Program-made: the position numbers and the translations under genes
Notes under the pieces: generated by a model
What the model saw: the letters and a program-made list of their open reading frames with translations, nothing else
Databases searched by the model: none
Told to the model about the DNA's origin: nothing
Assembly (NCBI RefSeq): GCF_014892515.1
Contig: NZ_JADBGR010000017.1
Coordinates: 1-55,090, forward strand
Length of the DNA: 55,090 nucleotides
Source of the DNA: Myceligenerans pegani
GTDB taxonomy: Bacteria; Actinomycetota; Actinomycetes; Actinomycetales; Cellulomonadaceae
Direction: 5' to 3'
In this document: piece by piece, positions 1-5,578 of the stretch
Layout: each line of letters opens with the position of its first letter
How positions within the stretch are numbered: position 1 is the stretch's first letter

Positions 1-231
1 CGCACACGGGGCGCGGGCCGACGTCTTTTTTGCCATGTATCAAAGCTCGCGGTACGCCCTCTGTACTGGTGAGAGGGAATCGTCGCTACGTCCCAGAGGG
101 GTGGATGCCGGGTGCGCGTACCGGTGAGGAGGGCACGGGCACGTCGTGCGTGTCGGTGTGCCCCCGTATATTTGCAGGGTCCAGAACCGATACGTCCGTG
201 TAGGCGGGCGACGAGACCCCGCATCGAGGCG
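1..231. other. Upstream region of the sigma/CHAT cassette
   Basis: No convincing gene is seen here. The frame of the following sigma factor stays open up to a GTG at 112, but the translated part is arginine-rich and unlike a sigma N-terminus. A T-run lies at 25-31. A TATATT hexamer at 167-172 is the best -10 candidate for the cassette. Confidence 0.5.
167..172 (+). promoter_or_regulatory. Possible -10 element (TATATT) of the sigma/S8/CHAT operon
   Basis: TATATT is a good match to a -10 hexamer in an otherwise very GC-rich stretch. No clear -35 is visible 16-19 nt upstream. A start near 179 would leave about 53 nt of leader before the ATG at 232 and would exclude the upstream GTG codons at 112 and 124 as starts. 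An extracytoplasmic-type promoter read by the encoded sigma factor itself cannot be excluded. Confidence 0.35.
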
Positions 232-870
232 ATGACACGACGCTGCGACGTTCCGTCCGCACGAGAGTCCCACGACGCTCCCGGCTCCACGCTCGGGGAG
301 CGCGCGGCGCATGCGCTGCTCGCCTACCGGGAGGGCCGCACGGATCGCCTGGACGCGGTCGTCCGGGAGACGACCCCGCTGCTGTGGGCGACGGTGCGCG
401 CCCAGGGCGTGGGCCACGACGAGGCGGCCGACATCGTGCAGAACACCTGGGTGCAGCTCGTGAAGCATGCGGACCGCATCGAGGAGCCGCGCGCGGTGCT
501 GAAGTGGCTGCTCACCACCGCCCGGCGGGCGGCATGGGACGCCGTGCGGAACGGCCGCGCGGACGCCGCGCTCCGGACGGACCTGCCCGAGGACGAGACC
601 CGGCACGCCGCCCTGCCCGATGCCACGCCGTCCCCGGACGCCCAGGTGCTGGCCAAGGAGCGCGACCGGATCCTCTGGGCGGCGTTCGCCAAGCTGTCCG
701 AGCGCTGCCGTGAGTTGCTGCACCTGGTCTCGCTCGCGGACCGCCCCGACTACCGGATGATCTCGGCCGCGGTCGGCATGCCGGTCGGGAGCATCGGGGC
801 GACGCGCGGCCGGTGCCTCGCCAAGCTGCGGACCGAGCTGGACCGCATGGGGGGTGGCGCGTGGATCTGA
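232..870 (+). CDS. Small sigma-70 family (ECF-like) RNA polymerase sigma factor
   Basis: The product (212 residues from ATG 232) has the two-domain plan of an ECF-type sigma factor. A region-2-like helical block (about residues 25-110) contains HDEAADIVQNTWVQLVKHA, the usual 'DlvQeTflrl' signature of sigma region 2.2. A region-4 helix-turn-helix (about 150-205) contains the conserved 'LsercRelLhL' start and a recognition helix ending in GATRGRCLAKLR. It should direct RNA polymerase to a special promoter set. The C-terminal codons overlap the next gene by 10 bp, so the two are translationally coupled. The start is uncertain: GTG 112 and 124 are also in frame, but their extensions are Arg/Cys-rich and lie upstream of the putative -10. 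No anti-sigma factor of the zinc-binding type is adjacent. The target regulon is unknown; the cassette itself is a likely member. Confidence 0.85.
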   Translation: MTRRCDVPSARESHDAPGSTLGERAAHALLAYREGRTDRLDAVVRETTPLLWATVRAQGVGHDEAADIVQNTWVQLVKHADRIEEPRAVLKWLLTTARRAAWDAVRNGRADAALRTDLPEDETRHAALPDATPSPDAQVLAKERDRILWAAFAKLSERCRELLHLVSLADRPDYRMISAAVGMPVGSIGATRGRCLAKLRTELDRMGGGAWI

Positions 871-1412
871 ACGGGGAGGACCTCCCGGAGATCCGGGACG
901 ACGAACTCGCGTACTCACCCACGGAGCCGATGGACGACGCCGATCGCGCCGTCCTCGCGCACCTCGCCGACGTCGCGGACCGGATCGACCCGATGCCCGG
1001 TGATCTCGTCGAGCGGTCGCTGTTCGCGGCGACGCTCGCGGGACTCGAGGCCGAGATGATGGAGGCCGTGCACGTGGCCGAGCCGTTGGCCGGGATGCGC
1101 TCGGCGACGGCACCCGCGGAGGGCGTACCGACCGAGGCGCGGACGATCTCCTTCACCCACGGCGACCTCACGCTGATGATCCAGCTCTCCGCCGAGCGTG
1201 CCGGCCGGATCCGCGTGGACGGCTGGATCGCGGTGTCGACGCCGTCGTACACGGTCGAGCTGCACCGGCCGGGCGCGGATCCGGAGACGACCGAGGCCGA
1301 CGAGGACGGGCGCTTCTCGTTCCCGGCGGTGAGGCCGGGCCCGGCGAGCCTGATCGTGCGGCGGCCGACGTCCGACGGCGGAGCGGTGAGCACGCCCGTG
1401 ATCGAACTGTAG
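861..1412 (+). CDS. Unknown protein with beta-sandwich (carboxypeptidase-regulatory-like) C-terminus, sigma-coupled
   Basis: This 183-residue protein starts at GTG 861, inside the last codons of the sigma gene and just after a G-rich stretch (ATGGGGGGTGG) that can act as ribosome binding site. The N-terminal third is acidic and helical, with a DPMPGDLVERSLFAATLAGLE helix pair (about residues 46-66). The last 75 residues are beta-rich, with RIRVDGWI, VELHRPG, DEDGRFSFPAVRPGPASL, the pattern of a CarboxypepD_reg-like (Ig/transthyretin) fold. No transmembrane segment, signal peptide or Cys/His metal site is visible. Translational coupling to the sigma factor suggests a direct partner: an inhibitor, an adaptor or a protease substrate. 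The function is not established. An annotation pipeline would probably leave it hypothetical or call it a regulatory-like domain protein. Confidence 0.75.
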   Translation: MDLNGEDLPEIRDDELAYSPTEPMDDADRAVLAHLADVADRIDPMPGDLVERSLFAATLAGLEAEMMEAVHVAEPLAGMRSATAPAEGVPTEARTISFTHGDLTLMIQLSAERAGRIRVDGWIAVSTPSYTVELHRPGADPETTEADEDGRFSFPAVRPGPASLIVRRPTSDGGAVSTPVIEL

Positions 1413-1524
1413 TGAGGCGCCGGCGCGCATTTTCGTGGCCTCGGGGGGAGGTCGTACAGCACAGTGGCCTGGGGGAGGCCGCATCGGCGCGGCGAAGGCA
1501 TTCGACGAACGAGAGGTGACCCCT

Positions 1525-2985
1525 GTGAGCATGTTCCCCGAGACCCCGCACGTACGAGACCACACCGGCGGGTGGCGGCCGGTCCGGGATCTCGATCCGG
1601 ATTCGGTGCGCTGCCGCCGGGAGGTCTCCCTGGCGCCGACGCGCTACGTGGCGGACCGTCTGATCCTGCGGACCACGCCGGGCGACGACCCGGACCCGCT
1701 GCTGGACCTGCTGCGGGAGCGGGCGGCCGCACGGAACCTCGAGCTCGAGGAGGAGCGCCTGGAGCGCGCGGCGTCGCGCGCCGAGGCGCCACGACCGGGT
1801 CTCGCCCTGCACGTCGCAGGCGAGGAAGGCGACGTGTGGGACCTGCTGGACGACATCGCCTCCGGGGTCGACACCGGCGAACGGAAGCGTATCGGGCTGG
1901 ACCACGTCCTGGTGGCGCATCGGAACGGGGGCGGACTGCCGGTCCCCGGCGACCGGGAGCCCGCCCACAGGATCGGTCCGGCGCCACGCCGCCTGCTCGG
2001 CGACGGTCCGGCTCCGTGGCTCACCGAGAACGGGATGCGCCGTCCCGTCGTGGCCGTCGTCGACACCGGCATCGGGCCACACCCCTGGCTGGACGGCGAT
2101 CGGCTGGTCATCCGTGACGCCGAGGTCGACGGTCGCCCCATCGGTACCTACACGGAGGACGAACCCGACACCACACCGGACGGCCTCACCCCGTACGCCG
2201 GGCACGGCACGTTCATCGCCGGTGTCGTGCATCAGATGTGCCCGGACGCGGCGATCCTCCCCGTCCGGGCGATGTCGACGGACGGACTCGTCCGTGAGTG
2301 GGACCTGACGCGCACGCTGGAGCGCCTGCTGGAGTACCACCTGCGCGGCCTCGCAGGTGGTGACGGCTACGCCCCGGTGGACGTCCTCGTGCTCGCCATG
2401 GGCTTCCGCCCGGAGGTCGTGGAGGACGACGACTACGAGGGGGTCCTCCGTGGCGTGCTGCGGGATCTACGCCGTGCGGGCGTGCTCGTCGTCGTGTCGG
2501 CCGGCAACGACGGAGACGACCGTGAGGTCTTCCCCGCCGCCTGGGCGCCGCATGTCCGACGGCTCGACGACCGCGTGGAACCGCTCGACCCGAGCGATCT
2601 GCGCCCGGAGTACCCTCCGATCCTGTCGGTCGCCGCATCCAACCCGAACGGAACGCTTGCGGACTTCAGCAACGACGGTCCCTGGGTCACGTGCGTGCGG
2701 CACGGCCGGGAGGTGGTGAGCACGATGCCGATCACCGCAGACGGCCCTCTGCAGCCCCAGTTCGTCGGCGACGACCCGCTGCGGGAGTCCACCGACCCCG
2801 ACGACTACACCGGGGGCTTCGCGCAGTGGAGCGGAACGTCCTTCGCCGCGCCAGTCCTGGCCGGCGAGCTCGCCCAGGAACTCCTGGAGCGCCGGCAGGA
2901 AGGGCAGGAAGGGCACCGGGTGACCATGGCGTGGCGGGCCGTGCAGGCCGTGACGGGTCTGCCCGAACCGGTCGCCGCACCATAG
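1525..2985 (+). CDS. Cytosolic S8 family subtilisin-like serine peptidase
   Basis: The 486-residue product is a subtilase with all catalytic positions present: Asp180 in VVDTGIGP, His227 in GHGTFIAGVV, oxyanion Asn328 in VSAGNDG, and Ser439 in SGTSFAAP. About 165 residues precede the catalytic domain; they are charged, with no signal peptide or membrane helix, so the enzyme is predicted to be intracellular, unlike the secreted S8 enzymes typical of actinobacteria. The start at GTG 1525 is chosen because GAGAGG lies 8 nt upstream; an upstream GTG at 1435 is in frame but has poor coding character. The gene follows the sigma partner by 112 bp and ends 10 bp before the TPR-CHAT gene. The N-terminal segment could be an inhibitory prodomain or a sensor/recruitment domain. 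Substrate unknown; members of the same operon are the first candidates. Confidence 0.9.
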   Translation: MSMFPETPHVRDHTGGWRPVRDLDPDSVRCRREVSLAPTRYVADRLILRTTPGDDPDPLLDLLRERAAARNLELEEERLERAASRAEAPRPGLALHVAGEEGDVWDLLDDIASGVDTGERKRIGLDHVLVAHRNGGGLPVPGDREPAHRIGPAPRRLLGDGPAPWLTENGMRRPVVAVVDTGIGPHPWLDGDRLVIRDAEVDGRPIGTYTEDEPDTTPDGLTPYAGHGTFIAGVVHQMCPDAAILPVRAMSTDGLVREWDLTRTLERLLEYHLRGLAGGDGYAPVDVLVLAMGFRPEVVEDDDYEGVLRGVLRDLRRAGVLVVVSAGNDGDDREVFPAAWAPHVRRLDDRVEPLDPSDLRPEYPPILSVAASNPNGTLADFSNDGPWVTCVRHGREVVSTMPITADGPLQPQFVGDDPLRESTDPDDYTGGFAQWSGTSFAAPVLAGELAQELLERRQEGQEGHRVTMAWRAVQAVTGLPEPVAAP

Positions 2986-2995
2986 GGCCGACACC

Positions 2996-5578
2996 GTGAC
3001 GGTGGACGACACGTATCTCGAGTCGCTCGCAACCCGGCTCAAGGCGGCACGTGAGCTGAACAAGCGGGCGCGGTGGGCCGACGGTGAGGCCGCGTTCCGT
3101 GGTGTGCTCGACGAGATCGAGGCGATCGACGTCGATCGCCTCGACCGGGTACTGCGGCGCGCGTGGGACGGTCTCGCCGTGCGGGGCCATCTGGGCCTGT
3201 CGAACTCGGTCCTCCTGCGGACCGACTCGCTCGACGACGCGATGAAGCTCTGTGCGCGTGCCGAGGAACTCGCCACGGCATCGACCGATCCGTCACTGAG
3301 GACCCTGGTCCAGACACAGCGCGGAGTTCTTCTGATCCGCACCGGAAGCACGCGCGCAGCTCTCGAACACTTCTCCGAGGCGTGCGAGAACGCGGACATG
3401 CTCGAGGACGAGGAGAGGGCGATCCTGCTCCTGAACCGCGGCAACGCGCACAGCGAACTCGGCATGTTCGAGGCCGCCCTGCGCGACTACGAGGCGTCCT
3501 ACATGCACGCGGCCGAGGCCGGGAACCTCATGTCCACCTCGTTCGCGCTCGGCAACATCGGGTACGCGCTGTACGCCATGGGTGACCTGCCCGGCGCCCT
3601 CGCGTCGATGGAGCGGTCGCACGACCTCACGCCGGACCGGGACGACGGCATCCCGCTCCTCGCACGCGCCGAGGTGCTGTTCGACAGCGGCCTGCTCGAG
3701 GACGCCGAACGCCTCCTGAGGACGGCCGTCGAACAGCTCGCCAGGGTGGGCTGGCCCGCCGACCACGCCGAGGCCGAATGGTTCCACGCCCGATGCCTGC
3801 TGGGCCTCCGCCAGTACGACGCGGCGCGCCGGACGGCACGGCGCGCCAGCCGCCGGTTCGCCGACGCGGGAAACCCTTCGATGGCGGCGCTCGCACAGGT
3901 CCTCGAGCTCGAGGCGGAGCTCGCCGGGACACGATTCGAGGCTCCCACGACCGCTGTGGCCCGCCGCCGGGCGGAGGCGGCGCTCGCGGTCGCCGAGGAG
4001 GGCGACGGGACCGGATCCTTTCTCGGCTATCACCCGGGCCACGCCGCCCGGCTCGTGGCCGCGCGCTGGCTCGTGCTCGCCGGCGACGTCGCCCGCGCAC
4101 GCCGGGTGTTCGACGTCGTCGGCCGGGACGGCCCGGGCACGCCGCTGACCTTCCGCATCCAGCGCCTCGTCGTGGCGGCGCAGCTGGCCTTCGCCGAGCA
4201 CAACCGGGCCCGGGGCCTGCGCGCCGTGCGCCAGGGCTTCCGGCTCCTGGCCGAGCACCGGTCGCGGCTCGGCGCGGTCGAGTCGGTGACGGCTGCGGCC
4301 GTGCACGGCGTCGACCTGGCGCTCGTGGACGTCGGCGCCGCGCTGGAGACCGGGCGGCCGACGGCGTTCTTCGACGCATTGGAACGCGGTCGCTCCACGT
4401 TCGCCGGCCCCGGCCGTGTCACCCCGCCTGACGACCCCGAGGCCGCCGAGCTCCTCGCCGAGGCCCGTGGCCTGCTGGGGCGCGCCCGGGAGCTTCCCGC
4501 GGACGGGGAGCACGCCGCCGAACGGGAGGACCTGACCCGGCGCGCCGGAGCGATCCAGAACAAGGCGCGGGAACGCTCGTGGTTGCACGCGGGAGACGCC
4601 GAGGTCGACCAGCCCGTCACCGCGCGCGAGACGGTGCGGGCCCTTGGAGGCGGCGCCGTCGTCGCCAACTTCGCGGTCTTCGGCGGACGCCTCCGCGCCG
4701 TCCGGGTCGACGACCGGGGCGCCGTGCTCCTCGACCTCGGCGAGCCCGCCGCCGTCGAGGAGCACGTGCGCCGCGTCCGGGCCGACATCGCCGTCGCCGC
4801 CAACGAACACATCCCGCCGCCGCTGCGCGCGGCCGCGCAGGCATCCCTCGCACGCTCCCTCAAGACGCTGGACGACGCCGTCATCGCTCCGCTGGGAGCC
4901 GATGGCGACCTGCACGTCGTGGCCCGCGAACCCCTGCTGGGCATTCCGTGGACCGCGCTGCCGTCGCGGCAGGGCCGGCGTACGTCGGTCAACTCGCACG
5001 TGGCGCGCGGTCGCCGGGACGCGCACCCCGGCACCGGCCACCGCCTGCTCGCCGCGGCCGGGCCCGGAGTCGCCCACGGCGCGGGCGAGGCCGGCGCGGT
5101 CGGCACGGAGTGGCCGGGCGCGACCGTACTCACCGGCGGGTCGGCGACCACCGCTGCCGTCCGCGAGGCGCTCGCCACCCACGACGTCGTCCACCTCGCC
5201 GCCCACGGTCGGCATGACGCCGACAACCCGCTCTTCGCCTCGATCGAGCTGGCCGACGGCCCCCTGTTCGCCCACGAACTCGACGGCATGCGGCTGCCCG
5301 GATCCGTCGTGGTGCTGGCCGCCTGCGAGGTCGGCGGCTCCTCCGAGGTGGTGGGGGGAGAAGTGCTGGGCCTCACCTCGGTCCTGCTTCGCCTCGGCGC
5401 CCGGGCCGTCATCGCGGCGGTCGCGCCCCTGCCCGACGCCCTCGCCGCCCAGGTCATGCCCCGCTTCCACGCCCACCTCCGAACCACGGACGACCCGGAG
5501 GCGGCGCTCGCGGCGGCCTGCGCGGAGGCGGACCAGCCGGTCCCGCTGGTCTGCTTCGCGGGCCTCTCGGGCCTCTGA
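2996..5578 (+). CDS. TPR-CHAT caspase-like cysteine protease
   Basis: This 860-residue protein has an N-terminal helical-repeat region and a C-terminal CHAT domain. TPR-like units are visible at roughly residues 103-136, 142-176, 180-214, 218-252 and 258-292. The CHAT (caspase HetF associated with TPRs) catalytic dyad is intact: His737 in HLAAHGRHD and Cys777 in VVLAACEVGG, followed by the usual GEVLGLTSVLLRLGARAVIAA segment. CHAT proteases belong to clan CD and are used in conflict and programmed-cell-death systems, where TPRs sense a partner or signal. The GTG start at 2996 is 10 bp after the subtilase stop, with only a weak ribosome binding site, consistent with coupled translation. It is the last gene of the cassette; the L10 leader follows. 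What activates it and what it cuts cannot be read from sequence. Family assignment is strong, the role is inferred. Confidence 0.92.
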   Translation: MTVDDTYLESLATRLKAARELNKRARWADGEAAFRGVLDEIEAIDVDRLDRVLRRAWDGLAVRGHLGLSNSVLLRTDSLDDAMKLCARAEELATASTDPSLRTLVQTQRGVLLIRTGSTRAALEHFSEACENADMLEDEERAILLLNRGNAHSELGMFEAALRDYEASYMHAAEAGNLMSTSFALGNIGYALYAMGDLPGALASMERSHDLTPDRDDGIPLLARAEVLFDSGLLEDAERLLRTAVEQLARVGWPADHAEAEWFHARCLLGLRQYDAARRTARRASRRFADAGNPSMAALAQVLELEAELAGTRFEAPTTAVARRRAEAALAVAEEGDGTGSFLGYHPGHAARLVAARWLVLAGDVARARRVFDVVGRDGPGTPLTFRIQRLVVAAQLAFAEHNRARGLRAVRQGFRLLAEHRSRLGAVESVTAAAVHGVDLALVDVGAALETGRPTAFFDALERGRSTFAGPGRVTPPDDPEAAELLAEARGLLGRARELPADGEHAAEREDLTRRAGAIQNKARERSWLHAGDAEVDQPVTARETVRALGGGAVVANFAVFGGRLRAVRVDDRGAVLLDLGEPAAVEEHVRRVRADIAVAANEHIPPPLRAAAQASLARSLKTLDDAVIAPLGADGDLHVVAREPLLGIPWTALPSRQGRRTSVNSHVARGRRDAHPGTGHRLLAAAGPGVAHGAGEAGAVGTEWPGATVLTGGSATTAAVREALATHDVVHLAAHGRHDADNPLFASIELADGPLFAHELDGMRLPGSVVVLAACEVGGSSEVVGGEVLGLTSVLLRLGARAVIAAVAPLPDALAAQVMPRFHAHLRTTDDPEAALAAACAEADQPVPLVCFAGLSGL

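Follow-up and report, generated by a model that had tools for sequence, protein, structure and literature searches.

The window analysed here (the whole stretch of 55,090 nucleotides of Myceligenerans pegani, contig NZ_JADBGR010000017.1) begins at the start of its contig (G000:C4) and opens with a four-gene operon on the + strand, encoding an extracytoplasmic function (ECF) sigma factor, a small partner protein that we call P2, an S8 subtilase and a TPR-CHAT protease (Table 1). An earlier sequence-only reading had named these products as a sigma-70-like factor, a 183-residue protein, an S8 peptidase and a TPR-CHAT protein, and the Pfam and NCBIfam matches together with the open reading frame (ORF) coordinates confirm all four. 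The same reading described the genes as closely packed: the four genes, the 10-bp overlap of sigma and P2 (861-870) and the 10-bp gap between S8 and TPR-CHAT (2986-2995) are exact, but with the S8 start at position 1525, which was also picked by the gene caller, P2 and S8 are 112 bp apart and tight packing therefore fails for some genes. The genome holds a single CHAT match, an Rfam scan of the window gave zero matches, and among named relatives Myceligenerans salitolerans (L095) is the closest, with a sigma identity of 92%.

Table 1. Features of the operon in the window, with the basis of each assignment (pLDDT, predicted local distance difference test).
Feature	Position	Strand	Basis
ECF-type promoter TGTATCA-N16-CTCT, predicted target of the operon's own sigma factor	36-62	+	Conserved upstream motif
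ECF sigma factor, 212 aa, ECF54-like	232-870	+	TIGR02937 (sigma70-ECF) 67.4 bits vs cut-off 42.9; PF04542; relatives aligned
P2, 183 aa, predicted cleavable anti-sigma factor/substrate	861-1412	+	Hairpin, linker and beta-sandwich; AlphaFold2 model from 52 sequences, mean pLDDT 85.6
P2 N-terminal helical hairpin, residues 26-73, putatively sigma-binding	936-1079	+	AlphaFold2 helices 26-42 and 49-73
P2 disordered linker, residues 74-94	1080-1142	+	pLDDT 51 (block 71-80) and 58 (block 81-90); length varies
Putative cleavage motif M79-R80-S81 (family V-R-[G/S/A])	1095-1103	+	Arg in 145/146 P2 sequences
P2 C-terminal beta-sandwich, residues 95-183	1143-1409	+	AlphaFold2 strands 95-177
S8 subtilase, 486 aa from likely GTG start	1525-2985 (ORF from 1435)	+	PF00082 72.5 bits
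TPR-CHAT protease, 860 aa, H737/C777	2996-5578	+	PF12770 88.7 bits vs cut-off 24, plus TPRs; AlphaFold2 model, mean pLDDT 91.3

The operon belongs to a module that is widespread in actinobacteria. A sigma profile searched against GTDB species genomes recovered at least 580 confirmed relatives, and among the best 80, which were kept as loci from named genomes and form a sample biased towards near relatives, P2 was present in 80/80, CHAT in 79/80 and S8 in 69/80; the sole locus without CHAT (L149) lies on a stretch that stops at a contig end. The gene order was sigma-P2-S8-CHAT in 51 of these loci, S8-sigma-P2-CHAT in 18, sigma-P2-CHAT in 10 and sigma-P2 in one, and distant relatives were more varied, showing a divergent CHAT, CHAT ahead of sigma, the order sigma-P2-CHAT-S8, or sigma-P2 without CHAT in the stretch. 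Within the order, tblastn found P2 matches in 34 of 198 genomes, and within the phylum a P2 profile found them in 39 of 396. A survey of the class covered 216 genomes (E <=1e-3 for the P2 profile, E <=1e-40 for the TPR-CHAT profile). P2 was detected in 78 genomes and TPR-CHAT in 74 (40 of 96 genera each), both together in 73, P2 alone in five, CHAT alone in one and neither in 137, a co-occurrence with a Fisher p of 2.6e-50 when kinship is not corrected for. Low co-occurrence of the four genes, which the sequence-only reading had named as a refutation of its proposal, is the strong opposite of what was found, with 73 genomes holding both P2 and CHAT against six holding one. Three of the five P2-only genomes (G661, G712 and G778) proved on re-inspection to hold a divergent CHAT beside sigma-P2, the P2 match of G732 was rejected as a secreted-looking protein, and G702 remains as a P2-only genome. 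A narrower earlier comparison had given CHAT at E <1e-60 in 15/18 P2 genomes and in 6/38 genomes without a P2 match, four of which (G010, G004, G060 and G397) were later found to hold P2.

The genes of the module can also lie apart. In 22 of the 73 double-positive genomes the P2 and CHAT matches were on different contigs or more than 12 kb apart, and in four of these they were megabases apart on a single contig. Both places were retrieved for 20 of the 22 genomes: 15 of the P2 places were CHAT-free across the full 10 kb, four were shortened by contig ends, and in G674 a CHAT fragment adjoins P2 after all (L325). Sigma adjoined P2 in 19/20 of these P2 loci according to the gene calls, as P2 neighbours sigma by coordinates among the relatives, and S8 adjoined CHAT in 17/20 of the CHAT loci.

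The S8 subtilase was missing from the fetched stretch in 11/80 loci, all of Cellulomonas, and a genome-wide tblastn search for S8 returned nothing in G158, G130 and G144, whose other three genes remain; the same search matched in G027 and G102, and in G149, which has no S8 in its operon, the best match reached E 2.6e-7. The core of the module is therefore sigma, P2 and TPR-CHAT, and S8 is a dispensable accessory, a result that leads us to reject the two-protease switch envisaged by the sequence-only reading. Where S8 is present its active site is intact: considering, here and for CHAT below, only alignment rows that cover at least half of the profile, D210, H257, N358 and S469 (numbering of the 516-aa ORF) are Asp, His, Asn and Ser in 113/113 rows. 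The earlier D180/H227/N328/S439 are these same residues, in a numbering that presumes the start at 1525.

Several loci depart from the common gene content. Two consecutive TPR-CHAT genes follow S8 in Promicromonospora and Antribacter (L097-L099, L101, L102, L105-L107), additional P2 copies occur in S8/CHAT cassettes without a sigma of their own beside a sigma-P2 pair (L176, L178), and a tandem S8 pair stands beside a divergent CHAT in L286-L288, L292 and L294. One family (L326, L328, L330, L332-L334) carries a very short, divergent sigma-P2-CHAT set, with a CHAT protein of 617-751 aa and no S8 called alongside.

The structural model of TPR-CHAT gave Csx29 as its first match in a Foldseek search of the PDB (8eey_B, E 2.3e-14, template modelling score to the query 0.40), a score that indicates a shared architecture and no close superposition. 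The second match was the TPR-containing anti-sigma factor DdvA, which in our reading probably reflects its TPRs, and the third was separase; the best 60 matches listed for the TPR-CHAT sequence profile included TPR proteins but not Csx29. The H737/C777 dyad proposed from the sequence is upheld, His737 being present in 134/136 rows and Cys777 in 133/136, with gaps and never a substitution in the remainder. Additionally, E698 is found in 133/136 rows and D814 in 128/136 (Glu in three), E698 being located in a model helix (695-705) that follows a strand (684-688). In clan CD peptidases with Arg at P1, helix alpha-1 or its vicinity holds an acidic residue, for example Asp163 of gingipain, Asp365 of MALT1 and a Glu of separase (excerpts of PMC4626109 and PMC4357240), and the conservation of E698 and D814 is consistent with a CHAT protease that cuts after Arg.

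A candidate for the substrate of such a protease is P2. Its Foldseek search returned generic Fn3/Ig-like sandwiches among the rows listed and zero matches at E <=0.001, and in Pfam it matched PF13620 (carboxypeptidase regulatory-like) with 22.3 bits, under the cut-off of 32.3. The predicted disordered linker between its two domains contains an arginine, Arg80, that is present in 145/146 non-redundant P2 sequences, with Val in front of it in 107 and G/S/A/T behind it in 144/145, while the residues around it are otherwise variable and gapped in the alignment. This arginine is kept in 49/50 of a divergent P2 set, in which the exception is again L090, and in 20/20 P2 sequences from the genomes whose CHAT match lies elsewhere; among eight very divergent short P2 sequences, for which the alignment is doubtful, it is found in seven, the exception being L327. 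Both P2 proteins without the arginine, L090 (G569) and L327 (G702), come from genomes without any CHAT match by the family model. For comparison, among alignment columns with a residue in 70% or more of the rows, the linker between sigma2 and sigma4 has no Arg conserved to 90%, and neither has the N-terminal region of S8, where one Arg reached 80%. The motif is retained in loci without S8, including those of G158, G130 and G144, so that the protease it indicates is CHAT rather than S8. Given the obligate pairing of P2 with sigma, we consider it probable that P2 is an anti-sigma factor, and the conserved linker arginine makes it likely, to a slightly lesser degree, that TPR-CHAT cuts P2 at this position.

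The region upstream of the operon contains a conserved promoter-like motif. Counted at spacings of 8-25, with dinucleotide shuffles as control, the strict form GTATC[ATG]-N16-CTC[CT] was present in 86 of 145 upstream regions, a set in which some genomes count twice, against a mean of 0.1 and a maximum of 2 in the shuffles, and spacing 16 was by far the commonest. A looser score accepted 107/145 regions, 94 of them at spacing 16, and the signal had already been visible in a discovery scan of 114 reduced upstream regions. The family consensus TGTATCA-N16-CTCY stands before the first gene of the operon, which is sigma in sigma-first and S8 in S8-first operons, and it also occurs between CHAT and S8 (L270, L300) and ahead of P2 (L284). 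Because the motif precedes whichever gene comes first, sigma most likely drives its own operon, and judged from these upstream regions autoregulation from TGTATCA-N16-CTCY is highly probable. In the genomes with separated genes, a relaxed form (spacing 15-17) was found upstream of 8/20 sigma-P2 loci. The arrangement of L284 (1825-5808) is unusual, in that P2 has a promoter motif of its own and is convergent to sigma, with a 4-base overlap and with CHAT and S8 alongside.

A wider regulon was rejected. Searched in 61 genomes of the family, the strict motif gave 36 matches against 27 for a reversed control, and 20 of the 36 lie ahead of module genes (sigma, P2 or S8); the other 16 do not exceed the control matches, which is why targets beyond the operon receive no support. 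One of these 16 (G629:C10) is letter-identical to the promoter of L133. In the genome of the window a looser pattern gave 24 matches against 15 for the control, and besides the operon one full TGTATCA match precedes a called gene, which encodes another ECF sigma factor. A promoter match in L276 that seemed to lie beside CHAT genes was discarded, these being BTAD/NB-ARC/TPR proteins. Some individual matches are recorded here for their own sake. The strict motif precedes a 189-aa gene followed by a 236-297 aa gene in three of four same-genus genomes (L264 5048-6712, L265, L266); in L264, to which the model scan was confined, the 189-aa product is an ECF sigma factor and the following one has no Pfam match. 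It also precedes a gene pair in L267 and L268, matching AbiEi/AbiEii toxin-antitoxin models in L268, the pair that was scanned, and of like sizes in L267, and in one genome a patatin/DUF3376 gene (L277 5026-9177), possibly by chance.

Taken together, these observations lead us to propose a protease-operated transcriptional switch, which on balance we regard as an even proposition. In the resting state P2 would keep the ECF sigma factor inactive, probably by means of its N-terminal helical hairpin. Upon a signal sensed by the TPR superhelix, the CHAT domain, a cysteine protease of the separase/Csx29 type, would cut P2 after Arg80 within the disordered linker, and the separation of the hairpin from the beta-sandwich would destabilise the inhibitor. 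The released sigma factor could then guide RNA polymerase to TGTATCA-N16-CTCY upstream of its own operon, yielding more sigma, P2 and protease, and subtilase where present, in a positive feedback. The S8 subtilase probably acts downstream, either in the clearance of fragments or as a proteolytic output. This logic would be that of Craspase, the type III-E CRISPR system composed of Cas7-11, Csx29, Csx30 and CASP-sigma, operating without CRISPR.

Several results weigh against this proposal. P2 has no match to any known anti-sigma family in Pfam or NCBIfam, its profile did not match Csx30 among PDB sequences at E up to 1, and Csx30 was likewise absent among the 50 Foldseek rows listed for P2. A coupling analysis of sigma and P2 (159 pairs, effective number of sequences 106) points neither way. 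The arginine is kept in the fragmented draft assemblies of G459 (590 contigs) and G573 (240 contigs), in which no CHAT-domain match was found, and E698 and D814 could be a feature of CHAT proteins at large and no mark of Arg cutters, so E698 agrees with cleavage after Arg and does not prove it. In Csx30, which Csx29 cuts between residues 427 and 429, an alanine scan revealed no essential residue (excerpt of PMC10028731), unlike the invariant Arg of the candidate site in P2. Regarding the promoter, the looser score fails in 38/145 upstream regions, the motif was present in 1/20 CHAT loci of the separated type (L300, between CHAT and S8), and in ten genomes of one group, in which sigma-P2 lies apart from S8-CHAT, no motif was common to both upstream regions.

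Other explanations can be given for the same genes. The published proposal for ECF54, stated in section 3.3 and Table 2 of PMC8999054, assumes no anti-sigma factor and holds that the proteases degrade sigma to keep the system off, with P2 as a carboxypeptidase. We find this improbable for the present module, considering that P2 has no peptidase domain and matches a carboxypeptidase regulatory-like family weakly, that the conserved cut-like motif sits in P2 and not in sigma, and that S8 is dispensable. The near-invariant arginine could instead be a docking motif for CHAT/TPR or for sigma, P2 being an adaptor that is not cut there. Docking is a common function of short linear motifs within disordered linkers, and Csx30 binds Cas7-11-Csx29 with or without target RNA (excerpt of PMC10028731); nevertheless, a V-R-small motif in a linker of variable length, beside a conserved caspase-like protease, better fits a P1-Arg site, and we consider docking unlikely, if somewhat less so than the degradation of sigma. 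The loss of the arginine in two CHAT-less genomes fits docking and cleavage alike.

An anti-phage or suicide system, in which the proteases would be killing effectors, is suggested by the presence of CHAT and subtilase proteins in conflict systems. The protease operon is itself the sole supported promoter target, and the strict motif stands before gene pairs in two genomes, with the AbiE match in the one tested. Against this, PADLOC-DB 2.0.0 returned no match for sigma or P2, a strong match to no system's models, and weak matches to a subtilase (E 5.4e-5), BovA (E 0.0097) and IetS. The genomic surroundings point the same way. The gene lists show the module between genes that we take to be rplA and rplJ, both of which are in the fetched stretch of 51/80 loci (rplA only in two, rplJ only in six). 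Viral contigs scanned with one peptide pattern gave no confirmed match, the plasmid collection yielded one match to a chromosome-sized record, and the phage collection one 7.5-kb contig with S8, sigma, P2 and CHAT (L285, MT838002.1, filed as 'Bacteriophage sp.'), which looks bacterial rather than phage, an unverified impression. The position at a ribosomal locus and the near absence from these collections weigh somewhat against a mobile defence system, whose probability we rate as low; the module looks like a resident regulatory system.

In the window itself (5882-30000) the operon abuts what appears to be a ribosomal and RNA polymerase supercluster. The genes beginning 303 bp 3' of the operon are similar to genes of L095 and are presumably rplJ, rplL and rpoB, and small + strand genes beyond rpoB resemble, by their size and order, what we take to be the str and S10 clusters; all these names were given by recognition only.

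If the proposed switch is correct, about one third of the sampled genomes of the class (P2 78/216, TPR-CHAT 74/216) would run a CRISPR-free, separase-type circuit in which an anti-sigma factor is cut at a near-invariant Arg and an autoactivating sigma factor is freed, and type III-E Craspase would be one specialised form, triggered by RNA, of an older and far commoner circuit, an interpretation that we advance tentatively and hold somewhat short of probable. A catalogued and unexplained sigma group would then become a defined protease circuit, for which both the scissile bond and the promoter are predicted, caspase/separase-type proteases would widely control actinobacterial transcription by cutting anti-sigma factors, and the Arg motif would serve as a substrate motif for many CHAT proteases that lack assigned targets. 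Besides, it would hint at the origin of the sigma arm of Craspase. With a putative cut site in P2 and a predicted self-activating promoter, the mechanism is open to direct tests.

Regarding known systems, the gene set is already in print as the ECF54 neighbourhood, in PMC8999054 citing Casas-Pastor 2021 and Huang 2015, and the excerpted text describes, as here, an actinobacterial ECF sigma factor with carboxypeptidase(-like), subtilase and CHAT neighbours, so that the sequence-only reading was mistaken in giving the combination no standard name. The genes of the window show these traits, with an ECF sigma (TIGR02937), neighbours matching PF13620 (below its cut-off), PF00082 and PF12770, and no recognised anti-sigma factor, and the two are most likely the same system. 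The present interpretation differs in that P2 is read as a putative anti-sigma factor and substrate with a cut-like site and S8 as an accessory, and in that the promoter by which the operon would regulate itself is defined. Among the open-licence literature matches listed, nothing concerned the cleavage of P2 or a role of it as an anti-sigma factor. New here are the modelled domain architecture of P2 with its linker Arg motif, the predicted self-activating promoter and the Csx29 fold match, the gene set itself being known.

In systems with a protease-released anti-sigma factor such as RseA/DegS, the anti-sigma factor sits in the membrane and is degraded in steps, whereas the parts of this module appear soluble by eye. 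Separase shares the helical repeats, the caspase-like domain and the cut after Arg (excerpt of PMC4626109), but it is eukaryotic, has cohesin as its substrate, is held by securin and involves no sigma factor. Different systems in which caspases are combined with ECF sigma factors have also been described (excerpt of PMC8195603). The closest parallel in organisation is CASP/Craspase, in which Csx29 cleaves Csx30, an inhibitor of the ECF sigma factor CASP-sigma (excerpt of PMC10028731). Both systems have a TPR-CHAT protein of Csx29-like fold with a His/Cys dyad, a two-domain partner joined by a linker and an ECF sigma factor, and autoregulation of the locus genes is predicted there (PMC10028731) as for this operon. 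They differ in that P2 (183 aa) does not match Csx30 by sequence and has the near-invariant Arg, in the subtilase, and in the single supported promoter target, the module's own operon. Moreover, the RAMP domain (PF03787) that marks a Cas7-11 effector was found in 0/20 module-bearing genomes, including that of the window, and in 4/14 controls. Together with the high co-occurrence and Csx29 as the best fold match, this bears out the part of the sequence-only reading that outlasts its two-protease switch and its missing name, namely a TPR-CHAT, partner and sigma module that is independent of CRISPR.

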